DNA of 53,542 nucleotides from Candidatus Heimdallarchaeota archaeon. Lineage in GTDB: Archaea; Asgardarchaeota; Heimdallarchaeia; Heimdallarchaeales; Heimdallarchaeaceae. Positions 17,575 through 46,694 of this stretch are shown here, piece by piece. The position numbers and the translations under genes were made by a program. Every line of letters starts with the position of its first letter. Position 1 is the stretch's first letter. The stretch spans positions 1 to 53,542 of the forward strand of contig JAAFKJ010000079.1 in assembly GCA_021399395.1 (NCBI GenBank), given 5' to 3'. The notes under the pieces are model-generated. The model saw nothing but the letters and a program-made list of their open reading frames with translations. It did not search any database and was not told the DNA's origin.

Positions 17575-18525
17575 TTATAAACAGGAATCTTTGTTTTCGA
17601 TTGCTTCGTAATTTGCATAATATTTTCGGAGACATCTTTGATGTTCTTCATTCATTTTTACTTGTTTCAACTCAAAAGCCAAAAATAGATTGCTTGCTAG
17701 CATGCAAACTGTCGCAGGACCACTTCCTCCTGGAACAGGGGATATTAAACTTGCATCTTCCTTTAAGTCGTCAAAATCTGTATCTCCCATTAACTTGCCA
17801 TCTTCAAAATTAACTCCTACATCTACTATGATTACACCTTTCTTTACCATACCTTTTCTAATCAGATGAGCACGCCCAACAGCTGCAATAAGAATATCAG
17901 CATCTAGAGTATATCTTTCTAGAGGTCTTGAACGTGAATGGCAAACTGTTACTGTTGCATGTTCTTTAAGGAGAAGATGAGCGACTGGTTTACCTACTAT
18001 CATACTTCTACCTACGACTACAACATGCTTTCCTTGTAGAGGAACTTGGTAATGCTTTAAAAGAGCAAGGACACCTAAAGCTGTTGCGGGAACCAAATTT
18101 GGTGCAGATTTTGTCCAAGCATGTACATTTCCTGGAGATAATCCTTCAATATCTTTGTTTGGAGAAATGCTTTCAATAACCAAATCTTCATCCATATGGT
18201 CTGGTAGAGGTAGTTGGACCATTATCCCGTCGATACTATCATCATTATTCTGTTTTGCGATTAATTCTAGCAGTTCTTCTTGTGTTGTTTCCTCTGGTAA
18301 ACTAGATACATCATAATCTACACAAAGACTTGCAAAAAACTTTTCCCTTATTCTCCGATAAGATTCGGAAGCTGGATCATTACCCACGATTATAGTAGAC
18401 AACTTAGGTATACTACCGTATTTCTCTTTAAAAATCTCACAACGTGGCCTTAGTACATTGTCAGTATATTCTTTCGAGAATTTCCTACCATCAATAATAT
18501 TGTTTTTTTCTTCAATGGAACTCAT
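17575..18525 (-). CDS. folD: methylenetetrahydrofolate dehydrogenase/cyclohydrolase
   Basis: VGNDPASESYRRIREK, DGIMVQLPLPDHMDE, VVVVGRSMIVGKPVAHLLL, PVPGGSGPATVCML. Confidence 0.97.
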   Translation of the reverse strand: MSSIEEKNNIIDGRKFSKEYTDNVLRPRCEIFKEKYGSIPKLSTIIVGNDPASESYRRIREKFFASLCVDYDVSSLPEETTQEELLELIAKQNNDDSIDGIMVQLPLPDHMDEDLVIESISPNKDIEGLSPGNVHAWTKSAPNLVPATALGVLALLKHYQVPLQGKHVVVVGRSMIVGKPVAHLLLKEHATVTVCHSRSRPLERYTLDADILIAAVGRAHLIRKGMVKKGVIIVDVGVNFEDGKLMGDTDFDDLKEDASLISPVPGGSGPATVCMLASNLFLAFELKQVKMNEEHQRCLRKYYANYEAIENKDSCL

Positions 18526-18675
18526 TCTTCTTCACTTGCAATATGACTTTGTATCTTATTATTATATAAATTATAAGAATTAACATTTTTTTAAACAGTC
18601 TTCCCCTTCTAGTATATTATATTATTAGTAAATGGTTTGTAATCGAGTAAAATAAAGATATTCTGAAGAGTAAAT

Positions 18676-20247
18676 TTAGAAATTGGTTATTGAAATTCTC
18701 ATTCTTGCTTTCTTTCTACTTATGCTTGTTAATCCAATAAAGGATAGAATGAAGATAATTAAAACTGAATGTGTTTCTTCTGTAGGTACATCTGTATTAT
18801 AACAATCATAATCATATACAAAAGGATAAGGATCTGTTCTGTTAGTCCTCCCATCAATCTGATACTCTCCTTCACCACTATAATCACTGTAGTAATTTCC
18901 GGTGTTTGTATTCTCATCGTACCAATCATTAAAACTTTCATCATAAGCTTGTGAATACCCGTCTTCTGTTCCATTCAGATTATTACACAGAAAATAATTA
19001 GAGTAAATTACATTCGAAGTAGAAAGCGAAGTATCTATCTTAAGTCCATATTTTCTGTTTTTTAGAAGAATATTATTTACAATTTCTGTGTATTTTGAAT
19101 CGACAAGTAGAATCCCTTGTCCATTAGATTCAACTGTATTATTCCAAATTTTTGCATGGAATGTTTCCCAAATTCTCATTCCTAATGTATTATTTCTACA
19201 AGTATTGTCTTCAATTATAAGGGGAATAACAGATGTAGATGAATCATAGTATGTATAGATCCCAGCATCTTTGTTTTCTGTACAAGTGTTTTTAAGCACC
19301 GTCATATTTGAACAACCATCTATTCTGATACCTGATTCATTATTTCTATTACTATAATTGTCCAATATCAGTGAATCATCTGTGTCCCTTGAAAAAATCC
19401 CATCTATATTATTTTTTGAACACTCATTATTAATTATCGTAATGTTCTGAGCCATATCAGTTATAATTCCAAAAACACCTCCAGTGCAATAATTATTCTC
19501 TATTCGATTGTGCTCTCCCCAAATCAAACTTATTCCACATAAACCATAATTAACTATGACATTGCGTTCAAATATCGAATAATCTACGTAATACGTTATA
19601 ATTCCTCCACCGGATAAGGTGTTATCTGTGACAATCGCATGATTTGAATAGACTGATTTGATGCTGTTCCCATTATTGTGACAATAGTTTTCTTTAATCT
19701 CAAGATAATCCACATGATCAGTAGCTATTCCATTCCGGTTTCCATAACATTCATTTTTTCTAATAAAGATATTATTAGATCCCCAAACGTAAATCCCCTC
19801 GGAATTGTGATATGCACAAGTATTGTTTTCTATGACAACAGTTCCAGCAATAATATCAGTGATTACTATTCCATCTTCTAGAGCAGATATGAAGCAATTA
19901 GAGATTATGAAACTCTTAGTAGTATTGAATACATATATCCCAACTGCAAAGATTGTTGAGATTTCGTAATTCTCAATCCGATAAGGATTAGTAGGTGTTC
20001 CTTCACCTGGAAACCCTTGTGTTATGAAATCCTCGTCTGATAGGATAATTATACTTGAGTGAGGTGTCAAACCTGATTTTGCTTTAGTTATTCCAAGAAG
20101 AGGTTTATCTTGCAGGTTTTTTATTTGAGATAAAACCCTCATATTATCAGAGTCTGAATCTAGCTGATCTAGCTGATGACTTATTGTAGCACAAAGAAAA
20201 ATTAGGACTGTGGAATAAAAGTAGATTTTTAAGAGTTTATTTGACAT
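18676..20247 (-). CDS. secreted/surface right-handed parallel beta-helix (NosD-like) protein with C-terminal TM anchor
   Basis: N-terminal signal; repeated IENNTC/IRKNECYGN/IKENYCHNNGN units; C-terminal VLIIFILSFIGLTSISRKK. Confidence 0.87.
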   Translation of the reverse strand: MSNKLLKIYFYSTVLIFLCATISHQLDQLDSDSDNMRVLSQIKNLQDKPLLGITKAKSGLTPHSSIIILSDEDFITQGFPGEGTPTNPYRIENYEISTIFAVGIYVFNTTKSFIISNCFISALEDGIVITDIIAGTVVIENNTCAYHNSEGIYVWGSNNIFIRKNECYGNRNGIATDHVDYLEIKENYCHNNGNSIKSVYSNHAIVTDNTLSGGGIITYYVDYSIFERNVIVNYGLCGISLIWGEHNRIENNYCTGGVFGIITDMAQNITIINNECSKNNIDGIFSRDTDDSLILDNYSNRNNESGIRIDGCSNMTVLKNTCTENKDAGIYTYYDSSTSVIPLIIEDNTCRNNTLGMRIWETFHAKIWNNTVESNGQGILLVDSKYTEIVNNILLKNRKYGLKIDTSLSTSNVIYSNYFLCNNLNGTEDGYSQAYDESFNDWYDENTNTGNYYSDYSGEGEYQIDGRTNRTDPYPFVYDYDCYNTDVPTEETHSVLIIFILSFIGLTSISRKKARMRISITNF

Positions 20248-20330
20248 TTTTCTCCTCTTGTTTGATTAATTTCTTATTTATTAAAACTTCCTCTCTTTTC
20301 CAAAAAAAAAAGAAAGAAATGTGTTTGGCA

Positions 20331-21401
20331 TCAGCCAAACCACTGTGTGTCAAGATTGTCATATAGCTGGCAGACTTGAGTTTGTGTTTTATTCAGATAA
20401 GTACTGAAGTAGGTAGCAGAATATGGACCTACTGAGCTATTTGCATTCGAGAAAGCAATATTTTCGCTATAATCATTTGCTAGATTATCAAAGAAGTAAT
20501 AGGAAAACGCTCCACCATATGAATTGTAAAGGGGAGGGTCATTAGCATCCCAATAAGTATAGTTGTCTCCAAACCACATTACAGCCAAATAGTCATCTGG
20601 GTGTTCATAGTATGTTGTTGCAATTATGAAAATATCTTCACTTGCGCGTGATGGTTTTTTATACTCGAAAACAAAATCTCCACTGTCACAACTCTCGATT
20701 ATTACGATGATATTTTCGGATTCTAGACATTCAATTTTATCGCAAAATTCAGAGCTCAATATAGCATCATCCATATTATCTTCTGTATTTTGACATACCA
20801 TAGAATCACCGCCATTGGCCCAATCAGAGCCCCCGGTTGTATCTCCATGGGCTATCACATATAAGAAAACTAGAGAATCTGAAGTTTCCAAATCATCTAC
20901 GTCATCTATGCTATCCTCCCAAATTTCTTGATCTTCCCTGTATAGTATATCTGAGAACCCTTCATAATCCACTAAATAATCGCCATACTCTTCCATAACA
21001 GTTTCATTAGTTGCATCAGAAGCCCACATAAAGAGCGCTACTCTTCCATCTATCTCAAAATCTTTATTGTGGGTAGAACTTGGAAAGGTTGCCCAAGTAG
21101 ATTGGTCTCTGTAACCCGATTTTTCAATTTTCATAGTATAAAGTTTGAACCTAACAATCGTCCAAGTAAACGAATAATTGCCATTAGAGTCTGTGGTATC
21201 TGTACATTTTACAACTCCATCTTCTAGAAGTTTCACAGCTACACCGCTAATAGCGTCTTCGGATGTCTTTATGGTTACTCTACCTGTGAAATCTACTGAT
21301 CCATAATAGACAGCGGATACAGGCTGAGTTTCACTTAACATAACTGGTAGAACAAGAGATACTACCAGTATACTAACTAATATCATTTTATTTTTATTCA
21401 T
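20331..21401 (-). CDS. secreted caspase-fold (clan CD, C13/legumain-like) peptidase candidate with N-terminal carboxypeptidase-regulatory-like domain
   Basis: Signal peptide; VTIKTSEDAISGVAVKLLEDG...TDSNGNYSF; His motif FLYVIAHGDTTGG; Cys motif IIVIIESCDSGDF. Confidence 0.72.
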   Translation of the reverse strand: MNKNKMILVSILVVSLVLPVMLSETQPVSAVYYGSVDFTGRVTIKTSEDAISGVAVKLLEDGVVKCTDTTDSNGNYSFTWTIVRFKLYTMKIEKSGYRDQSTWATFPSSTHNKDFEIDGRVALFMWASDATNETVMEEYGDYLVDYEGFSDILYREDQEIWEDSIDDVDDLETSDSLVFLYVIAHGDTTGGSDWANGGDSMVCQNTEDNMDDAILSSEFCDKIECLESENIIVIIESCDSGDFVFEYKKPSRASEDIFIIATTYYEHPDDYLAVMWFGDNYTYWDANDPPLYNSYGGAFSYYFFDNLANDYSENIAFSNANSSVGPYSATYFSTYLNKTQTQVCQLYDNLDTQWFG

Positions 21402-21411
21402 ATTTTTTCAC

Positions 21412-21424
21412 CTTTGGTATAAGG
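21412..21424. repeat. direct repeat copy 1, CTTTGGTATAAGG
   Basis: Identical 13-mer at 21582..21594. Confidence 0.9.
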
Positions 21425-21554
21425 AACTTATTCTATGATTTTTCAGTATAAAAATACAATAATCATTTAGTGACATTTCCTCTATTGTTCTTTCTTTAAC
21501 AACAGACTTTAGTTTTTGGAATATCTTTTTTAATATGTTAAATAGGAATAATAC

Positions 21555-21617
21555 TGATGAGTGGGATGAAAGATTCAACATCTTTGGTATAAGGTAGTTC
21601 TGAAGTTCCACTCATCA
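21555..21617. repeat. inverted repeat TGATGAGTGG ... CCACTCATCA enclosing direct repeat copy 2
   Basis: 10-bp arms at 21555..21564 and 21608..21617; CTTTGGTATAAGG lies inside. Confidence 0.9.
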
Positions 21618-21672
21618 TTAAAAGCAACCATTTTTGACCCCTTCAAAATAGCTATTCCATCAATGTGTTGCA

Positions 21673-22875
21673 TTAGGATTTCAAAATTAAATTTCTTCTT
21701 CTGAAAACAACCAAAGAAAACAAAACGCTGCAAGCTAAGACAAAACATCTATCTACGGTGGTATAATTCTCTGTATTGTAACCATCTGGAAGAATGACTG
21801 GTTCTTGTAAGGGAAAATAATCTACTGATTCTGCATCCCCATCAATAAAGTATGGTGAGTCATGTTCAGCTTCTGACCAATAATTGCCAGCGTTTTCGTA
21901 TTTATCAAACCAAATATTGTTTTTTCCACTGTCGTATGATTGAGTATATTTTGAATCACCATTATCTATGAAATCATTGAATGATACTTCCCCAGATTCA
22001 CATCCCTTATCTAAGAATAAAGCAAAATCAATATTCTCAAGAAATAAATTATAGTTAAAATGGAAACGAGTAGAATCAGCAACAAATGCTCCTGTAAAAT
22101 GGTTCTTTATCAATTCGTTTTTCGATAGAAATACTTGATCGCTGTTTTCTAAATATATCCCTGAATCAAGATTTCCTTCACAGATGCTTAAGAAACATCC
22201 TGTTATATTGGAAGAAATAATAGATATACCATACATTGAATTATAGGAGCAGTTATTGGCAATAAGATCGCTGTATTCAGAGGCACCAACAGTTATACCT
22301 GAGTAGTTGTTCTCAAAACAAGTATTTTCGTAAATTATTGTGAAGGGAGAAAAAAATGCAGCAATCCCAAATTTCATGTTTCCATAACATGTATTGTTAT
22401 AAACCACTATTTTTTCTGAAAAGAGAATACCTATACCCATACCATTAGTACTCTTACTATTTACACAAAAGTTGTTAGCAACACCAGCTGAATCACTTGC
22501 TACACTTTCAATACAAATACCAGCGTACGAAGCATCTATGTAACAATTCTGAATAATAAAGTGTTTAGAAGTAAAACCTACATAAATACCATAGCTTTCG
22601 TTTGTTGAGATGTTTAGTCCTTCAATTATGTATGGATCATCAAGAATTCCTGTTCCATTGAAATCTACGAAATCCCCGTCAGATGTTATAGAGATGGGGT
22701 CATGTTCAACATATTTGTAATTTAGGGGAGTGTTCAAAGGTTGAAAACTCCTAGTTGAAGAATTTGACATCATGCTAGGTATGACCAGGAGTACAATTAT
22801 GAGTGGAATGGTTGCTTTGAAATTTACTTTTCTCATTTTATTAATTTTAAATCCAAAATTACTTATAAAAACCAA
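21673..22875 (-). CDS. secreted/surface right-handed parallel beta-helix (NosD-like) protein with C-terminal TM anchor
   Basis: Signal/TM N-terminus; IQNCYIDAS, VYNNTCYGN, IYENTCFENNYSGI repeats; C-terminal FVLACSVLFSLVVFRRRN. Confidence 0.87.
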   Translation of the reverse strand: MVFISNFGFKINKMRKVNFKATIPLIIVLLVIPSMMSNSSTRSFQPLNTPLNYKYVEHDPISITSDGDFVDFNGTGILDDPYIIEGLNISTNESYGIYVGFTSKHFIIQNCYIDASYAGICIESVASDSAGVANNFCVNSKSTNGMGIGILFSEKIVVYNNTCYGNMKFGIAAFFSPFTIIYENTCFENNYSGITVGASEYSDLIANNCSYNSMYGISIISSNITGCFLSICEGNLDSGIYLENSDQVFLSKNELIKNHFTGAFVADSTRFHFNYNLFLENIDFALFLDKGCESGEVSFNDFIDNGDSKYTQSYDSGKNNIWFDKYENAGNYWSEAEHDSPYFIDGDAESVDYFPLQEPVILPDGYNTENYTTVDRCFVLACSVLFSLVVFRRRNLILKS

Positions 22876-22950
22876 AAAGAAAAAAACTACAAATGTCCAA
22901 GTTTTTCTCTCGTTTTTATATGAAACTAATTATTATAATTTGAATATAAT

Positions 22951-25900
22951 GTGAAAATAAGGATAGCTATACTCTCTCTCATAATTTTGGGTAGCATGTT
23001 TATTGGGGAAAATCAGGTGATTTCTAGGGAAAAGCCTTCAGAAGTCCGAGCTGGAAATGAATCCCCACAGTTTATATTAGATGAAATAAGGTTTGAGTAT
23101 GATTCAATCTCTAAAAGTGAGTGTGTTTATTCAACAACTCTAGATCTTAACTTAACTACTTATAACGCTATTTCATTATATTTCGCCGTAAGTGGTGATC
23201 AAACCAATAGTGAGGGATTAAAAGTAACATTCTATGTTAAAGATATCATAACACAATTTATTGTTGATAGATATTATCAGAATGGTGAAACTCACAATCT
23301 AACGCAAACATTTTCTCTCCCAGAAAATTATAACGGATTTGTAGATGTCACAATTATTTGTGAAGGGCAATCATCATATCTAAATCAAAAAGGAACATTG
23401 ATAATCAGAGAGCAAACTAGCATCAAACCTATTCCCATTCTTACTCTCAACAATAATATAGATAATCTCCCTATAGTTCCAGAGTATCTATGGTTCCAAG
23501 GGAACATTGGTACTTCTAAATCGGAAAGCATTGTTTCAAAATTTATCTGTCTAAATGCATCTTTAAGCTTAAATCTCACTTTAATGTTCAAATCAAAGGA
23601 ATTCAGTTCATCATCCCAAGATTATACCATCAAATTAAATAATGAGATTTTGGTTACAGAGAAATTTGATGATGGAATAGAAATAAAAGATAACCATATT
23701 TTACCAATTCAAGAAGGTTTGAACACTATTGAGATATTTTTCACCATCGTTCAATGTCTTACTTACATTGAAATTTATGATATCGGTTTACAAGCTAATG
23801 CTTTCTCCTATGAGAAGTATCTCGAAGAAGTATGCTTTGATTTTGTTCAGTTAAGCGAAGAGAACAATAATCAGATTATTGTTTTATCAGATTTAAAACC
23901 CTCAGAGAGTAAAATAGAATGTGTGTTACTGATATCTCTTGACTATGATTGTTTAGGAGATATTAGTTGGTCAGAGTTAAATTACGAGATATTTTCTGGA
24001 ACTGATAAAATCAATGATGGCATTATTACTGATTCGGATAGTTACTCTTCTAAAACACTTCGAGTTGAAACATATACTAAGAACTTCAATGAAATACTCT
24101 ACCTTAGACTATTTGGCGAAGTAGAAGGTGAGGGTATGTTTTTACTTCTCCGAACAAGTTATATTTCGACTAATGATATATTTTTACTAGAAGATCGGAT
24201 AATAGATAAAACACTCTCTGAGGATAAGGTTTTTTCAATTGAGCCAAACAAACCCAAGATTCTGGAATTTTACGAGGTTCTGAAAATAACAGATTTGGAA
24301 AACTCAGAAACACAACTTGGGGTAATAATCGATTGTTATTCAACGTATGACAGACACATTGATTACGTAACCATAGTAGTCATATTAGGGGAGGAAAAAA
24401 TCATCGATTCCGTCATAGCTTTCACAAGTAATACAACAAGATGTGATAAAAGAAAGACAATCAATTTCAATAGTAAATATAACGAAATTAGAATCATAAT
24501 CTCAATCTATGGTGACGACGATACGGTAGAATTTAACCAGATTAAATTGTTGGTTATACCTACCAATGTGTTTTCTCAAATCGAGTTACCAACAGCTATT
24601 AATGTTAGTATGGACATTCTTTGGTCTTTGTATGGTTTAATACTGCTCAAACTTGTAGGGGGATACTTCAGTCGAAGGAGGAAAATTGTGAAAATTTCTC
24701 AGGAACCTCAGCTAGAAAATGAACCCACCGAGATAAGAAACACTAAGAAGGAATCCGTAAAACAATTATGTGTTGCAATTACAATTTCCACGATTACATA
24801 CTTGTTGATGTTTTACTTCATGGTACTAGTTGTACACTTCAATAGCTTAATTGCATTTACAATCTCTCTAATCTATGGAGTTTTTGTTGGTTATATCTCT
24901 GATTCTCTTGAATTATATAAAATTAGAATCAAAGATTTAAAAGCAAAATTAGTACAACGAAGATTTAGTGATGCTAATACTTGTGAATCTTCTTCAAGAT
25001 TCATGAATTTCTTCTCTTCTTCTGAATTTCTAATACTTCGAGCTACTATCATACTAACAGTTCTACTATTTTGCTGGCGTTGTATGGATTTTCTTTTTAT
25101 TTTATATACAGAAATATATTCAGCAAACTTCTCTGTTAAGTATTATTGGTTCTTTTATGCGGTTATTGCCCTTAGTGTTGCAATGTTACAGTGGAGTATT
25201 AAGTTGTCTCTAAATTTCACATTTTTGGAAGATAACCTTAAAAGAGTCAGGATTTTTGGTCTTGTATTAATAGGTCTTATATTGTCATTTTGGTTTCCAA
25301 TAATCTTTAGCGTAATCATCCAAACAAAAAATCTCGAAATTCTTCTTACAGTATTTACACCCTTGTTTCTCGGCTTAAATGTTTATTTCAGTAACTTCTT
25401 AGGAAAACGTATAGCTATGGAAAATAATGAATTTTTCAGGAATTTTAGGAAAAGAGGGATTATTTTTACAAAACAAGAAGATGTTAAACAGGCTCTTTCG
25501 TGGAATATAACGACACGTAAGGAGTGGATTAAAAAGAAAAACGAAGAGAAAAGAAAGAAAGATAAAGAAAAATTGCGAAGTAAAATACTGTGTGAAATTG
25601 AGGAAAAGGATCCAGTGTATCTTAGAAGACTATCTGAATTGATTGACGAAACAGCTGAAACAACAGAAATCTACCTTCAAGAAATATTAGAAGAAGATAA
25701 AGAATTGGGAACATACAATAAAGGATCTCAAGTGTTTAGAAAAAACAAAATAGAGAATAATGTTGAATATCTCAATTTAATGCAAGTAAATGAAACTGAG
25801 ATAGACGTTAGAGAGAAAGATGCTGAGCCTACTGTAGAACTATCAACTATTCGAAATGATGATGAAGAAGATTTGGAGAACATTCATTTTATCAAATTCA

Positions 25901-28900
25901 ATAAGCAATCAGGTCTATTTCGGATCAATCAAGAACTAGAAAAAATAATTGCCAAACTAAAAAACGGTGACAAAATTATTCTTGTCCACCGAAATGAAAG
26001 CGGAGAAGAAATGGAAAAAACCATTTCATTTGAATTCTTAGCAGACGGACACTCTTCTGCTCTGGTGTTAGCTAAAGCCCTTATGCAGAGAATACGAGGA
26101 TTGGTGAAACAAGCCAATAAAACAGCAACAGAATATTGGGGAGAACAGAAAATAGATTTTTCTTCACTTGATGAGGAGAAAAAGCGTATTCATCTTAGCA
26201 CCTTAGCTATGAGAATTAATGTAGGTCTTTCCGTGAGTAAAATCTTTACAAAGGAACAATTTGAGCGTGATGCGGTATTGTTCTGGAATGACGATTATGA
26301 ATCATTTGCCAAAGATGCTGAACCCATGGATATTCTTTCAGCCAATTTATCAACAACCCTTAAGGGAGAATTTGCAATCATCATGGTTTTTATTCAGTCA
26401 TTACTTCTAATGCAGAAGGATTCTCTAGAAGCAAATAGAAAGAGGTTTAACAAAATCAAAGAAAACCTTGAAAGAAGAAGAAAGGAACTAGAAGTAGGTT
26501 CTGTGAAGGAGGGTTGTTTATGTTATACTCTGACGGATTATTACAATCCTTTCATCAAACTAATCTATTCTATAGATGAGAATGGCATTGCAAAATTGGT
26601 AGGATGGGAGTTCATACGACCAGAAGAGAGAAGTTATGTCAATTCTTTATGGGGTGAAAAACTACCATATAACCCAGAAAATGAGGGTTCTGTTATTGAA
26701 GCAATCAAAAATGAATGGGAAAATTTGTCTACTAGAAGAAAGGAGAAAGAGTTCAACAATCTTCCAGAAATCACTCAAAAGAAGATTACAAGGTTTGTTG
26801 AGAAAAATTATGGTAAAGGAACAAGCTTACTTGCACTCTATGCTCATCTTAGATACTTCTCAGATGTTTCTACACAGAAATTCAAAGAAAAAATTCAAGC
26901 GATTTTAAAATTCTTTCCTACAGAGATTGCAGATTGGTCTTTGTATATTGTTGATCGTCAAATACAATGGATCAATAGGGGACAGGACATGTTTGGTTCA
27001 ACCGCCTATCTTCTGATGAGAAGTAGGATCAATGAACGAGGTGAAGTCTATTCTTATGCTCTCCCTAACCCTTCTCCTTCTGGTCATAAATGGTTGAGAG
27101 AAGGTTGGGCAGAGATAGAAGCTAAATCTGGCTGGGATAAGAACCCCAAAGCGCTAGACACAAACCTTATCCGTTTCACCAACAACCCCGAGCATGGATC
27201 TAGTATATATCTTTCTGACGATTCATTATTTCAAATAGCGAAAGCAGTCAAGAGGAAAGAATATGATGTTTTGGTTAAACATAAAGGGAAAAAGAAAAAA
27301 ATCTCAGAACTAATAACGGCAAAATCAGGTTATAGACAAATTGCTGGAATGTTAAAAGGTGATTACTTTAACATCATTTTTCGTTCAATAGATAGAGTAG
27401 ACATCAATACCGCCATCAGCACACAAAAACACCTTCTACGCAGATTGTTGGATGCAACAGTTACTTTCCCTCACCTAATTACTAATGACGAATGGTTAGA
27501 AGCGTTAACATCTAAAGAAAATAGCAATCAGTTCTTTGAGCTTGTTCAAGCAGTAATTACCAATAAACCCGAGTGGAAAGGATTAAGACTTCAACCTGTA
27601 GAAGACAATAAAGTCGTTAAAGAGATCTTTTCTGAGTTCTTCAGCTCTCTTCTCTATTACAACATACTCCTCTTCGCTTCAGGTTTGCCTGTCCTTCAAT
27701 TCAACCAAGATCTGCTCAACAAGGGGTTCTATCTACCTCAAACCATTGGTCTTGATGAAGATATGAAACAGATTAAGTTAAACACTAAGGAACCTCCAGT
27801 TTACCGAAATATCAGAGGGAGGTTAACTCAGCTGGTTTATGGTGGAACTAATCTTAGTGTTATGATCACCATTCCTCGAGCTAACAAACCTCTTCTAGTC
27901 GATCTGTCTCATAACACTTTCCAACGACCTATTTACGTCCGAAGGATCATCGAAGATGTTCATCTAGAGGAAAAGATTGTTTATGCTCCAAGAGTTATGG
28001 TCAATGGGAAGGAGAAGGTGATCATTCTTAGTTCTCAGGGATATGTTTTGAAAGAACTTGTCCTCGCAGCAGATAAAAGGGAGACTATGGTTCTAACTTC
28101 CGCTCATGAAACAGTCTATGGTGCGGTAGCTGTTGTAGAAGGGGGGTTGTATGTTAACAGCTATGCCAGACAGATGCTCACTCAACTGTTAATTTACGGA
28201 GGTATGCATATTGATGGAAAGGTGTATGAAGCCGTAATTGAGCTGTTTAACAAAGAAAAAGTGGATAGTCTAACCCTAGAACCTAAACAGACTCCGTTTT
28301 TGTTCTTTTCGCTCATTTCAGCAACAAGAGCAAGAGGAGAAGGGCAGCTAAAGGGGTTAACTAGTCCTGTAAAACACCAAATAAAGAAAGGGAGAAAAGA
28401 GTACAACTACCAGCATAGACCGGTTATTTTAGGAGTGGCTCTGACCAGTATGGAAGAGATGTTGTGTAAGGAGGTAGATTATTCGATAGCTTTTGGAAGT
28501 GGGTTAGAAAAGTATGACCTACTATATTGGAACAGATCAAGAGTAAAAGGAGAAAAAGATGTAAGGTATAATGTAAAGGGGAAGAATGGGTATGTGAACA
28601 AGTTACTGCATACTTTTCAATTGGTGTTCAGAAATGCGTTCAATATAGTTTCAATGGAAGGTAAAGGGGGGGAGAGAATACATCAGCAGTTGTGGGCACG
28701 CGTTCATAACAAAAGAGTAGAGGTTTCTTTCACTAAACCAAATGAAGAAAAGTGGCACAATGCCAATCTTAGTATTCCATTGATTACTACAAACAAATAT
28801 AGTAAGAAAGACTGTTATTATTCTATAAAAACTATAGCACAGCGAATCCCCCACATATTATTGTCTAAGGATATAAGTGAGAGAAGGATAAATGATCTGA

Positions 28901-29763
28901 AAAAGATATCAATGAGTTTCCTTCTCATGATGAAATATTCAGAAGAGAGTTTTCATAATAAGATACAAAACTCAGTTTGGAAAAGTCTAAGAAAAATAGC
29001 TGTTAAATATAATATAGAAAAACAACCATTAATTGATAGAAAAGACTGGGCAAAAATTATCACATTCTTATTTCCAGAGGTCTTAAAAGCTTCCAGACTT
29101 ATCTCCTCTACTCATGCAGAGAAATTCAAAAAACAGTCTCTCAAAAGCATTAACATAGATGAATTAGAAAAAACCAATCCAAACCCTGATGAACTTCTAA
29201 AGATCTTCCCACCTGAAACTAGAAGTGATTGGCATTTGAGAGTGCCATATCATGCCTTTTTCATTTTCTTTGGTTATTATCTAGGAAATAATTGGACGCT
29301 TCTCTATACAAAAACAAATAGCCATAAAAAATATAACAAAGTTTCTAACTCCAAACCAGATTCGCTTATTGAAAAAGTATACAGACTATATGTACCTTGG
29401 TTATTTTGGAGAGCTGAAGCTTTGAAAACATACTTTGAAGAAGGAATGAATGGTTATTCAAGTATTCATGAGTTATTATGTAAAGGATTACTCGATAAGG
29501 AATTAAGGGGGCTATTAGATTACACCTATCAAGATATCATTACTACTCAAGACTTTAGTTCACAAGTTGTCAGCCATAAGAAATTAACATTTATTGAAAA
29601 AATGATATGGTTTCATATTAAAGAAGTGCAAATTCTGGATATAATAGCGTTTAATCACTCCGGATCATTTCAAATTATGGATGAAATTACGAAAAACTTT
29701 GGTGAGTTTGATAAAATTCAAGAGGTTGCAGAAAACATTGACTCGCTGTTCGAGTTGGTTTAA
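22951..29763 (+). CDS. giant (2270 aa) multi-TM protein of unknown family: secreted beta-rich ectodomain, about 7 TM helices, very large cytoplasmic C-terminus
   Basis: Single uninterrupted ORF; signal IRIAILSLIILGSMFIG; TM segments between about aa 550 and 830; basic/charged linker; no recognised catalytic motif. Confidence 0.9.
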   Translation: MKIRIAILSLIILGSMFIGENQVISREKPSEVRAGNESPQFILDEIRFEYDSISKSECVYSTTLDLNLTTYNAISLYFAVSGDQTNSEGLKVTFYVKDIITQFIVDRYYQNGETHNLTQTFSLPENYNGFVDVTIICEGQSSYLNQKGTLIIREQTSIKPIPILTLNNNIDNLPIVPEYLWFQGNIGTSKSESIVSKFICLNASLSLNLTLMFKSKEFSSSSQDYTIKLNNEILVTEKFDDGIEIKDNHILPIQEGLNTIEIFFTIVQCLTYIEIYDIGLQANAFSYEKYLEEVCFDFVQLSEENNNQIIVLSDLKPSESKIECVLLISLDYDCLGDISWSELNYEIFSGTDKINDGIITDSDSYSSKTLRVETYTKNFNEILYLRLFGEVEGEGMFLLLRTSYISTNDIFLLEDRIIDKTLSEDKVFSIEPNKPKILEFYEVLKITDLENSETQLGVIIDCYSTYDRHIDYVTIVVILGEEKIIDSVIAFTSNTTRCDKRKTINFNSKYNEIRIIISIYGDDDTVEFNQIKLLVIPTNVFSQIELPTAINVSMDILWSLYGLILLKLVGGYFSRRRKIVKISQEPQLENEPTEIRNTKKESVKQLCVAITISTITYLLMFYFMVLVVHFNSLIAFTISLIYGVFVGYISDSLELYKIRIKDLKAKLVQRRFSDANTCESSSRFMNFFSSSEFLILRATIILTVLLFCWRCMDFLFILYTEIYSANFSVKYYWFFYAVIALSVAMLQWSIKLSLNFTFLEDNLKRVRIFGLVLIGLILSFWFPIIFSVIIQTKNLEILLTVFTPLFLGLNVYFSNFLGKRIAMENNEFFRNFRKRGIIFTKQEDVKQALSWNITTRKEWIKKKNEEKRKKDKEKLRSKILCEIEEKDPVYLRRLSELIDETAETTEIYLQEILEEDKELGTYNKGSQVFRKNKIENNVEYLNLMQVNETEIDVREKDAEPTVELSTIRNDDEEDLENIHFIKFNKQSGLFRINQELEKIIAKLKNGDKIILVHRNESGEEMEKTISFEFLADGHSSALVLAKALMQRIRGLVKQANKTATEYWGEQKIDFSSLDEEKKRIHLSTLAMRINVGLSVSKIFTKEQFERDAVLFWNDDYESFAKDAEPMDILSANLSTTLKGEFAIIMVFIQSLLLMQKDSLEANRKRFNKIKENLERRRKELEVGSVKEGCLCYTLTDYYNPFIKLIYSIDENGIAKLVGWEFIRPEERSYVNSLWGEKLPYNPENEGSVIEAIKNEWENLSTRRKEKEFNNLPEITQKKITRFVEKNYGKGTSLLALYAHLRYFSDVSTQKFKEKIQAILKFFPTEIADWSLYIVDRQIQWINRGQDMFGSTAYLLMRSRINERGEVYSYALPNPSPSGHKWLREGWAEIEAKSGWDKNPKALDTNLIRFTNNPEHGSSIYLSDDSLFQIAKAVKRKEYDVLVKHKGKKKKISELITAKSGYRQIAGMLKGDYFNIIFRSIDRVDINTAISTQKHLLRRLLDATVTFPHLITNDEWLEALTSKENSNQFFELVQAVITNKPEWKGLRLQPVEDNKVVKEIFSEFFSSLLYYNILLFASGLPVLQFNQDLLNKGFYLPQTIGLDEDMKQIKLNTKEPPVYRNIRGRLTQLVYGGTNLSVMITIPRANKPLLVDLSHNTFQRPIYVRRIIEDVHLEEKIVYAPRVMVNGKEKVIILSSQGYVLKELVLAADKRETMVLTSAHETVYGAVAVVEGGLYVNSYARQMLTQLLIYGGMHIDGKVYEAVIELFNKEKVDSLTLEPKQTPFLFFSLISATRARGEGQLKGLTSPVKHQIKKGRKEYNYQHRPVILGVALTSMEEMLCKEVDYSIAFGSGLEKYDLLYWNRSRVKGEKDVRYNVKGKNGYVNKLLHTFQLVFRNAFNIVSMEGKGGERIHQQLWARVHNKRVEVSFTKPNEEKWHNANLSIPLITTNKYSKKDCYYSIKTIAQRIPHILLSKDISERRINDLKKISMSFLLMMKYSEESFHNKIQNSVWKSLRKIAVKYNIEKQPLIDRKDWAKIITFLFPEVLKASRLISSTHAEKFKKQSLKSINIDELEKTNPNPDELLKIFPPETRSDWHLRVPYHAFFIFFGYYLGNNWTLLYTKTNSHKKYNKVSNSKPDSLIEKVYRLYVPWLFWRAEALKTYFEEGMNGYSSIHELLCKGLLDKELRGLLDYTYQDIITTQDFSSQVVSHKKLTFIEKMIWFHIKEVQILDIIAFNHSGSFQIMDEITKNFGEFDKIQEVAENIDSLFELV

Positions 29764-29838
29764 TTCATTGTAAGATCTACTCTTATTTGAGAAGTCCAAA
29801 ATCAAAAGGTTTTTATCAATTATTAGAACCCGTGAGTA

Positions 29839-29850
29839 AGTCACGTGACT
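29839..29850. promoter_or_regulatory. 12-bp perfect palindrome AGTCACGTGACT upstream of rpoA1
   Basis: Self-reverse-complementary; about 25-30 nt downstream of TATA-like GGTTTTTATC and 41 nt before the rpoA1 ATG. Confidence 0.5.
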
Positions 29851-29891
29851 AGTGTAGAGATTCAAAATTATTTTTGGGAGAAATATAAAGA

Positions 29892-33790
<3,899 letters not shown>

Positions 33791-43402: not shown

Positions 43403-44677
43403 ATGATAACATCGTTGAGAATAGAGTGCATAGAATTAACCTATACTCCAGCTTTAAGCAAGCTTTGTCATCACGTTAAGAATCTCTACAACCGAGCGAA
43501 TTTTCTGATAAAATCTTCACTCAACAAACAGAACAAGGTGTTAAGTTATTATGAACTGAATAGCTTACTGAGATCTGAAGAATGTTACAGAGTACTACCT
43601 GCTCATACTGCCCAACATACTCTCAAACTCCTATGCAGAAATTGGAAGGCATTTTTTCAAGCTCAAGAGGAGTTTAAGAAGTACCCAGACAAATTCTATT
43701 CTAACCCAAAACCTCCTAAATACAAACCTAAGAAGGGAGAAGGAGTGGCGATTATATCAAACCAGCAAGCAAAGATAAGAAATGGGTGGGTAGTCCTTCC
43801 CAAGAAAGTAGGGTTCTACTACAAAAAACGACTAACTAAGCGTATTGTTTTGAAAGAAGCAAGAATCGTTCCTAGAAACGTAGGTTACACCTTAGAACTT
43901 GTTTATGCGAAAATCCTTCCAAAACGGAGGAAGAAGAACACTAGAAAGGGAGCTATTGATTTAGGATCTGTCAACCTCATGACCTTCGTAGATAACCTCG
44001 GGAATCAGCCGATTGTTGTCAAGGACCACGGCAAAGGTATCAAAAGTATTATCCAGTATTATATGAAAAAACAAACTCAGTTAAGAGCAAGGTATGTCCA
44101 ACAGCAAAAAAAGAATTTGAAGCAACAACAGAAATTGGTTTATGGGAAGGGCTACTATAAACTTAGTGAGCGGTACCGTAAGAAACTCAAGAACGCTATT
44201 CATCATCTTACCAAATATTTAGTAGACTTGTTCGTCGAACGAGACTTACATGAAGTAGTTATAGGTTACAACCCCAAGTGGAAACAACACGTAAGATTGG
44301 GGAAGAAGAACACACAGATGTTTGTTACTATTCCCTTTCTTAAAATTATCAATCAATTGAAGTATAAAGCTGAAGAACAAGGGATTGATGTAGAGACTAT
44401 ACCTGAGAACTATACATCTAAGAGTAGTTTTCTTGATAATGAAATGTCACAAAAACGAGACAAATATATTGGTAAACGCTCCTCTCGAGGATTGTTCACT
44501 TCTGCTCAAGGACACAAGATCAATGCAGATGTGAATGCAGCATATAATATCTTAATCAAAAGCGATCCGAAAGCCATACCTAAGCGTACGGTGAACGGGG
44601 TAGGAGGGTACGTGATGTACCCACGTAGGGTGTGTGTGGACCCACCAAGAATGATATGCACATCGACTATGAAATAG
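43403..44677 (+). CDS. tnpB: IS200/IS605-family TnpB-like RNA-guided nuclease (OrfB)
   Basis: GAIDLGSVNLMTFVD (RuvC-I Asp); VVIGYNPKWKQ; ENYTSKSSFLDNE; RGLFTSAQGHKINADVNAAYNI (RuvC-III Asp). Confidence 0.93.
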   Translation: MITSLRIECIELTYTPALSKLCHHVKNLYNRANFLIKSSLNKQNKVLSYYELNSLLRSEECYRVLPAHTAQHTLKLLCRNWKAFFQAQEEFKKYPDKFYSNPKPPKYKPKKGEGVAIISNQQAKIRNGWVVLPKKVGFYYKKRLTKRIVLKEARIVPRNVGYTLELVYAKILPKRRKKNTRKGAIDLGSVNLMTFVDNLGNQPIVVKDHGKGIKSIIQYYMKKQTQLRARYVQQQKKNLKQQQKLVYGKGYYKLSERYRKKLKNAIHHLTKYLVDLFVERDLHEVVIGYNPKWKQHVRLGKKNTQMFVTIPFLKIINQLKYKAEEQGIDVETIPENYTSKSSFLDNEMSQKRDKYIGKRSSRGLFTSAQGHKINADVNAAYNILIKSDPKAIPKRTVNGVGGYVMYPRRVCVDPPRMICTSTMK

Positions 44678-45113: not shown

Positions 45114-46694
45114 ATGAGACCAATAGAGATAAGGAAGAAACTATCTGTTTTAAATTCCAAAGATGAATTGAGAGAAATAATATCTCAGTTAAAAATTGTT
45201 GCTTCAAATAGAAGATCTGATGAAAATATAATCCATATAATCGAAGACAGTATTGGTGTAGCAACAGAGATTAAGGATTTTGAATCTCTAGTCATTCTAA
45301 AAGGTCTTCTAATCCTTCAATACATTCAACAATCGACTAATATGGAAAAATCTATCCGAATTCTTGAGAAAATGCAATCTTTAGCAACTAAAATAGATTA
45401 TAAAGAAGGATTAGCGTTTTCCTTTTCTTTTGCTTGGTATATAGCACGAATTAGAGGAAATAAAGAAGAGAGAAGAGAGTCTATTATTAGTGCTGTAACG
45501 TTATTAGATGAAGTTAACCAACCAAATCAGTTTATCTACTATTTTGTAAAGTACACTCAAGCATTAGAAATGTGGTTTGTATCAAGAGATATTAGATGTG
45601 TAGACATCTTAGAAAATTGTATTGTCTATTTTTCTGAAAAAAGACTTTACCATAGTCTCGTAATGTCACTTGGTATTCTAAGCTTGATTTTTCAGCAAAC
45701 TCAAAACAAAGAGAAAGCTATAAATTTAACAAAAACAATTCTTATGAGAAGAAACTTTCTTAATCAAGTACCTGAGGAAATCAGATCTAATATTCACTTC
45801 TTTATTGGTTTTAGTCAAGAATTATCATTTAGCCTCAATGTGGCAGAGAAGCATCTAAAGGAAGCAATAAGGATACTACAACCTATCTATGAAACCAGTA
45901 TTTACTCCAGTTACTATTTGACTGCTCTTTCCTATCTTACTGCAACCTATGCACTTCAAGGAAAGCTAGAATTAGCTTACAATCAGATAATAGAAGTAGA
46001 TGAACTGATAGAAGAAGGAATAGCAACAAGAAATCTAGATGACTTTAATAGAGGGCAGATGAAACATATCTTTGACTTAACAAAATTCTATATCCTTTCA
46101 AGATTACGAAATTTTGCACCCAAAAATTTGTATGAATTAAAACAAAAAATCCTTGAGAATATAAGCAAATATTATAGCAACGCAATCTTTTTCAGTGAAT
46201 TTCTCTTAAATGCTGAATTAACAAAAGAGCAACTTATAGAAATAAAGGATTTAAAAACCCCAAGTACTAAGAGGATTGAGCACATACTTAATTTCCTAAT
46301 AGAAAGAGCTATTATAACTAATGAGCAAGATTTAATAAATTCAATTTTTGAATTGAAGAGAAGACCTGCGAAAAAGCGAATGACTTATGAGGAAAAAGCT
46401 TTTGCTGATTTGTTAGCTGCACAGGAATATTACAAAATCAGACGCTTCTCCGAAATCTATCCTCTTCTCAAGAAGTATAAAAATAATCTAAATCGAATTG
46501 AGGTGCTTGAACTCCGTATCTTTATGGAAGCATTTATCCAAATTAGTGCCTTCAAGAACGGTGATCCTATGGGACTTGCTTTACAATATGTGGCTATCAG
46601 AAAATGCCAACAGTATGGTTTCAGTGGGTTAGAAAACAAATTGTTAAGCTACTTAGAACTTCAACGCAAGGATGTTGTTAAAGCTTTATTCTAA
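45114..46694 (+). CDS. TPR-like helical-repeat protein, unknown function
   Basis: 526 aa of repeated amphipathic helices, e.g. AEKHLKEAIRILQPIYE, YLTATYALQGKLELAYNQIIEVDEL. Confidence 0.75.
   Translation: MRPIEIRKKLSVLNSKDELREIISQLKIVASNRRSDENIIHIIEDSIGVATEIKDFESLVILKGLLILQYIQQSTNMEKSIRILEKMQSLATKIDYKEGLAFSFSFAWYIARIRGNKEERRESIISAVTLLDEVNQPNQFIYYFVKYTQALEMWFVSRDIRCVDILENCIVYFSEKRLYHSLVMSLGILSLIFQQTQNKEKAINLTKTILMRRNFLNQVPEEIRSNIHFFIGFSQELSFSLNVAEKHLKEAIRILQPIYETSIYSSYYLTALSYLTATYALQGKLELAYNQIIEVDELIEEGIATRNLDDFNRGQMKHIFDLTKFYILSRLRNFAPKNLYELKQKILENISKYYSNAIFFSEFLLNAELTKEQLIEIKDLKTPSTKRIEHILNFLIERAIITNEQDLINSIFELKRRPAKKRMTYEEKAFADLLAAQEYYKIRRFSEIYPLLKKYKNNLNRIEVLELRIFMEAFIQISAFKNGDPMGLALQYVAIRKCQQYGFSGLENKLLSYLELQRKDVVKALF

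Follow-up and report, generated by a model that had tools for sequence, protein, structure and literature searches.

The DNA analysed here, referred to as the window, is a stretch of 53,542 nucleotides of contig JAAFKJ010000079.1 from a Candidatus Heimdallarchaeota archaeon and contains, upstream of the RNA polymerase gene rpoA1, a single open reading frame (ORF) of 2270 codons which starts with GTG and has no internal stops (Table 1). At the composition of this ORF a run of 2270 codons without a stop has a probability of about 6e-74, stops being expected at 7% of positions; moreover, a codon preference learned from conserved genes of the window singles out its frame among all six in every full block of 150 codons. 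For these reasons the ORF cannot be a product of chance, and it is genuine and coding throughout. The protein that it encodes, P0001, had been described in an earlier note, drawn from the letters alone, as the product of one uninterrupted ORF with a signal peptide, about seven hydrophobic helices and a cytoplasmic C-terminus, and this outline is borne out. Specifically, hydropathy places a signal peptide at about residues 1-20 and gives seven transmembrane helices (approximately residues 552-570, 603-653 with two helices, 687-720, 734-756, 762-795 and 795-817), while basic inside loops predict, from hydropathy only, that the chain is cytosolic from about residue 818 onward. The basic/acidic linker that was reported to follow the helices, instead, includes a winged-helix domain that had been overlooked.

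Table 1. Features of the P0001 locus (positions in the window; residues refer to P0001)
Feature	Position	Strand	Basis
Whole receptor ORF, 2270 residues	22951..29763	+	ORF call, codon preference
Signal peptide, residues about 1-20	22951..23010	+	hydropathy
Beta-rich ectodomain, residues about 26-550	23026..24600	+	family kept in 23 of 232 Asgard genomes; model, profile comparison
Seven predicted transmembrane helices, residues 552-817, positive-inside, C-terminus inside	24604..25401	+	hydropathy; kept together with the winged helix in profile A2
Winged-helix domain, residues about 870-936	25558..25758	+	profile; shared with RING-type zinc-finger proteins of Heimdallarchaeia
Class B C-terminal module, predicted cytosolic, residues 960-2270, P0001 only	25828..29760	+	paralogue homology ends at about residue 950; no full-length homologue
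Last 72 residues of P0001, with relics in G006 and G003; no other part of the module is seen elsewhere	29545..29760	+	39-41% identity
Island of 11.4 kb between folD and rpoA1	18526..29891		nearly all relatives have a few hundred bases here
folD-like gene, left flank	17575..18525	-	named from sequence; synteny in 12 genomes
rpoA1 (RNA polymerase Rpb1 domains 1-5), right flank	29892..32579	+	Pfam, synteny
Island cargo, beta-helix/NosD surface protein	18676..20247	-	Pfam
Island cargo, carboxypeptidase-regulatory-like domain protein	20331..21401	-	below Pfam cut-off
Island cargo, beta-helix/NosD protein, divergent from the receptor gene	21673..22875	-	Pfam

The N-terminal 950 residues of P0001, comprising the ectodomain, the seven transmembrane helices and the winged helix, belong to a family with about 60 members, whole or fragmentary. 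A search with P0001 found homologues in 24 of 58 related genomes (all genomes compared being metagenome-assembled), many of which carry several copies, and the genome of P0001 itself has at least one further copy of this region in addition to one relic. BLAST-type matches to paralogues reach E=4e-106, with ectodomains homologous over about 500 residues. Two profiles, both of which include P0001 itself, were used to delimit the family: the ectodomain profile A1 (E=3.8e-164 on P0001) matches 23 of 232 Asgard genomes, all of them in the taxonomic family of the window and distributed over three genera, and profile A2, covering the transmembrane helices and the winged helix (E=9e-79 on P0001), is restricted to the same taxonomic family, save for the winged helix alone. 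In other words, the label of orphan protein given to P0001 has to be withdrawn for residues 1-950, and it stands for the C-terminal 1310 residues or so, for which there is no full-length match.

The ectodomain, of about 520 residues, is modelled by AlphaFold, from an input of three sequences, as all-beta with low confidence (predicted local distance difference test, pLDDT, 39). Its description as several related sandwich domains is confirmed in part by profile comparison, in which units 2 and 4 are related (hhalign 95%). Foldseek matches of the model to Cry proteins, reelin, CBM22 and C1q reach TM-scores of no more than about 0.2 and were discarded as meaningless beyond the statement that the fold is all-beta. 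The winged helix, in turn, is present in nearly every fused member of the family, and the same domain is found in many cytosolic proteins of Heimdallarchaeia, usually right before a RING-like zinc domain. In one relative it gives a weak PCI match, and it may be of a protein-binding type. In Heimdallarchaeia a winged helix followed by a RING-like zinc domain is itself a common arrangement (L089-L104, for example L094:1684-2586 and L103:918-2705). TPR, HEAT-like, LRR or coiled-coil parts stand before it, and the proteins concerned have the look of a large E3-ligase-like or adaptor family.

A shorter form of the sensor, of about 613 residues and consisting of ectodomain and transmembrane helices, stands alone and constitutes a clade of its own in the ectodomain tree (support 98/96). 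It is accompanied by conserved genes, including one for an AAA_25/RecA-like ATPase, in all ten loci of the examined cluster, and a scan for it in a genome collection returned only close matches from Heimdallarchaeota/Asgard. The presence of this form in a distant genus (G023) suggests that it represents the ancestral sensor. Its operon also includes a small gene (L081:10559-11098 and homologues) with a conserved 'RIDLAAYD...IIFVEAENG' motif, possibly encoding a PD-(D/E)XK variant, and the adjoining gene, of 1049 codons, matches PADLOC mad8 at 8e-7.

Windowed identity to P0001 falls to background at about residue 950 in every paralogue, and what follows are modules of distinct classes: A (1320-1560 residues), B (P0001 alone), C (1305), D (991), E (about 890), F (about 720) and G (520-650), with the sensors of class H ending without any module. 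The profiles of F and D (92%) and of F and E (73%) proved to be related on comparison; A, B, C and G remained separate. On the ectodomain tree 14 module changes are needed, with a minimum of 9, and well-supported branches force at least four changes for A, at least four for G and at least three for F; in particular, L058 and L034 are sister sensors of one genome which carry different modules. In two loci (L038 and L067) sensor and effector are encoded by separate, adjacent genes. The tree shows that the sensors have repeatedly exchanged their modules. Signs of rapid turnover are also seen, namely sensor and class F relics with stop codons, one split gene and the location in an island.

These data also bear on the possibility that P0001 is a misassembly fusing several genes, which had been named as something that would overturn its description. 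The break at about residue 950 is family-wide, and in L038 and L067 the two halves exist as split neighbouring genes; coding character extends over the entire ORF in a single frame, and a relic matching the extreme C-terminus lies beside rpoA1 in G006. A misassembly is consequently unlikely, with independent support covering the last 72 residues and not residues from about 960 to 2198.

As far as the content of the modules is concerned, classes F, D and E have in common a core of the pattern '[GS][FI]D[DENS]..hhxL ... hhxExK' with flanking hydrophobic strands; D78, K97, Y109, G171 and K177 do not vary across 13 aligned sequences, and E95 is kept in at least 90% of them. A D...ExK core is the signature of PD-(D/E)XK nucleases, and the pattern of these three classes is that of a putative core of this nuclease type. 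Its profile matches about 38 places, mostly in the same taxonomic family, with one strong match in another family of the class (G049). The same nuclease-type domain occurs in free-standing form, in soluble proteins of about 740-1000 residues, and as the C-terminal part of giant surface proteins whose ectodomains and transmembrane helices are unrelated, represented by a frame of 4635 residues in G021 (L119:1-10944) and by one of at least 2979 residues in G007 (L130:1-8940). Class A shows a G.D...K pattern with invariant D and K, and class C a D...ExK motif recognised by eye in two close relatives only. Class G, whose module also exists free-standing, matches AbrB/MazE in five of six members and, weakly, LAGLIDADG_3 in three of six. 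The window further contains, at 45114-46694, an ORF of 526 codons that is probably its own member of a family found also near class F sensors (L038, L049 and L050).

Sensors that lack a module have neighbours of related interest. Class H sensors and truncated relatives adjoin, in eight loci representing few independent lineages, a gene of 630-650 codons whose product has a Cas12f1-like TNB domain (Cas12f1/TnpB-like). In two of these eight loci a SIR2-TPR gene follows 48 bp downstream, matching the PADLOC short-Argonaute SIR2 family (Aga_SIR2) at 2e-35. A gene with an invariant HEPN-like RxxxxH, for which DUF4145 support is weak, is present in four such module-less loci and in one class G locus. 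In the Cas12f1/TnpB-like protein (L028:1602-3500, L057:3808-5766 and relatives) a His seems, by eye, to stand in place of the third RuvC aspartate. Also by eye, the start of an ORF of 424 codons at 43403-44677 of the window resembles that of a TnpB-type transposon protein.

None of these assignments extends by homology to the module of P0001 itself. Residues 960-2270 have no relative in the 232 genomes of the phylum except for about 70 residues at their end, tblastn found none in phage or plasmid collections, and profile comparison with the other module classes gave no significant similarity, the scores lying within those of shuffled sequences. Moreover, P0001 has no Pfam family above cut-off and nothing in PHROGs, PADLOC or PDB. 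PDB matches of segments of the C-terminal part, at E>=0.2 only, were dismissed; by-eye alignments with the nuclease-type cores of classes A and E were dropped after hhalign and hmmsearch against shuffled sequences; and an AlphaFold model of residues 1061-1680 made without an alignment was unusable (pLDDT 34). Given the lack of relatives beyond about 70 residues, of phage or plasmid matches and of similarity to other classes, class B is, by current evidence, an orphan module. The view of the earlier note that P0001 is a large surface receptor with a novel intracellular module and no catalytic signature is well supported: the sensor belongs to a conserved family, the C-terminal 1310 residues or so have no match beyond two relics of about 70 residues, and no nuclease motif or homology is recognised in them. 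By analogy with the paralogues, the effector of P0001 most likely acts on nucleic acid.

The genomic site adds to this picture. Among the relatives examined, almost all have folD and rpoA1 side by side in divergent orientation, separated by a few hundred bases; in the window four genes and 11.4 kb are interposed. Since the two genes are normally adjacent, this site next to rpoA1 appears as an island peculiar to the genome of the window and a few relatives. In G006 the gap between them holds an ORF of 84 codons, directly upstream of rpoA1, whose product is 39% identical to the last 72 residues of P0001, and in G003 other cargo and a relic of 67 residues are found on the folD side. From these relics it would follow that a P0001-like gene was probably once present in other lineages and then decayed. 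The pattern of gain and loss fits accessory conflict genes. The surface-type cargo of G003 at this spot (L109:767-3114 and L064:5511-6899) is a different one and suggests an integration hot spot. With regard to rpoA1, it matches in two pieces in G008:C182 and G011:C115, and in G014:C117 the match lies in a frame of 1443 residues and its identity is lower. These cases could reflect an insertion, an intein or a paralogue.

The interpretation favoured here, to which we would give about an even chance of being right, is that P0001 is a modular surface receptor of Heimdallarchaeota with exchangeable cytosolic effectors, acting in an immune response; the role of the receptor family would probably be antiviral. 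According to this model, the ectodomain would bind a virus, the coat of a mobile element or a foreign cell outside the cell, and the part formed by the seven helices and the winged helix would relay the signal inward. The effector, kept silent at the membrane, would then hit nucleic acid or host metabolism near the site of entry. Viral entry would be the likeliest trigger of such a surface alarm, which releases or activates an intracellular attack, and in P0001 the effector would be a new module whose chemistry is not recognisable from sequence. This reading is preferred because of the combination of a fixed sensor with an exchangeable cytosolic effector, of nuclease motifs, of defence effectors beside module-less sensors and of fast turnover. 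A number of observations weigh against it, however. Phage collections gave no match and so no link to a virus; the PD-(D/E)XK assignment is one by motif conservation, and hidden Markov models of the core gave no supporting match to a named family in Pfam or PDB; and the C-terminus of P0001 has neither a convincing D...(D/E)xK motif nor significant profile similarity to classes A, C, D, E and F.

In addition, the winged helix of nearly all fused members, shared with cytosolic RING-type proteins, and the AbrB/MazE-like domain of class G would also fit gene regulation. P0001 could, that is, be a membrane-anchored regulator whose ectodomain senses a nutrient, a surface or a neighbour, and whose winged helix and module act on the cell's own DNA or transcription. 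This is rather unlikely, as it would be unusual for regulators to have conserved D...ExK cores, modules that turn over fast and neighbours of the SIR2, Cas12f-like and HEPN-like kinds, and the winged helix, which gives a weak PCI match in one relative, may bind protein. Polymorphic toxins of the CdiA/Rhs type combine a conserved N-terminal part with swapped C-terminal effectors, and this hallmark, together with the several copies per genome, brings to mind self/non-self recognition or contact-dependent competition, in which the variable C-terminus of a polymorphic surface protein acts on another cell or a fused partner. We consider this unlikely: hydropathy predicts that seven transmembrane helices retain the variable part in the cytosol of the producing cell, in contrast to such toxins, and the strips after the sensors, where short genes were not screened, showed neither an immunity gene nor a small gene that is conserved.

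The absence of an enzyme signature in P0001 and the beta-helix surface proteins encoded by the other island genes would also be compatible with an ordinary giant surface or adhesion protein, its C-terminus being a non-enzymatic scaffold; paralogues with conserved nuclease-type motifs at the same position make this quite improbable. Finally, selfish or homing islands could be considered, in which nuclease modules (LAGLIDADG, TnpB/Cas12f-like) spread themselves with the sensor as passenger or anchor. LAGLIDADG-like and Cas12f1/TNB matches, the island location and the relics point in this direction, but most modules are not of homing type, the sensor is well conserved, with its standalone form in a stable operon in 10 loci, and neither terminal repeats nor an integrase were identified, no systematic search having been made for either, so that this explanation is very improbable.

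The immune-receptor interpretation finds its closest counterparts among defence systems at the membrane. SNIPE of E. coli is a membrane-held nuclease which cuts incoming phage DNA and spares the host (PMC13190303), and Kiwa and Zorya are membrane-localised defence systems using membrane sensors (PMC12904381). SNIPE is a single chain that begins with a membrane part and keeps its cytosolic nuclease at the membrane, a layout that for the P0001 family is predicted from hydropathy only. The relation between constant and variable parts is reversed, however: SNIPE has one nuclease (GIY-YIG and DUF4041) and a short variable N-terminus, thought to set specificity (PMC13190303), whereas in the P0001 family a large ectodomain and seven helices are constant and the modules vary. 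In P0001 a Pfam scan detects no GIY-YIG or DUF4041, and no sequence relation to SNIPE was found. Kiwa and Zorya resemble the family in coupling a membrane sensor to DNA-acting effectors; they differ in being made of separate proteins without a large ectodomain of the P0001 type, and none of their PADLOC families matches P0001. With PD-(D/E)XK nucleases the D...ExK motif is common to classes F, D and E and, in part, to class A, P0001 being without it. For short-Argonaute SIR2 effectors the point of contact is the matching SIR2-TPR gene beside two class H sensors; this gene, however, follows a membrane sensor and is not found at the P0001 locus, and no Argonaute gene was noted next to it, none having been looked for. 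To our knowledge, no membrane-placed nuclease joins a large ectodomain with interchangeable effectors within a single chain. No description of such a receptor family was seen in a survey of Asgard defence (PMC11291487) or in the literature searched.

Membrane-placed nucleases such as SNIPE, Kiwa and Zorya represent an antiviral strategy that is only now emerging. More tentative than the reading of P0001 itself, and a proposition that we lean somewhat against, is that Heimdallarchaea possess undescribed surface immune receptors in which one sensor, seven helices and a winged helix are combined in one chain with freely exchanged nucleases or other effectors, the effector fold of P0001 being new. 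If true, several effector families that no library recognises, including that of P0001, would exist in these archaea, the origin of surface-receptor immunity would become testable, and there would be a prokaryotic parallel to eukaryotic surface receptors in a lineage near the eukaryotes.

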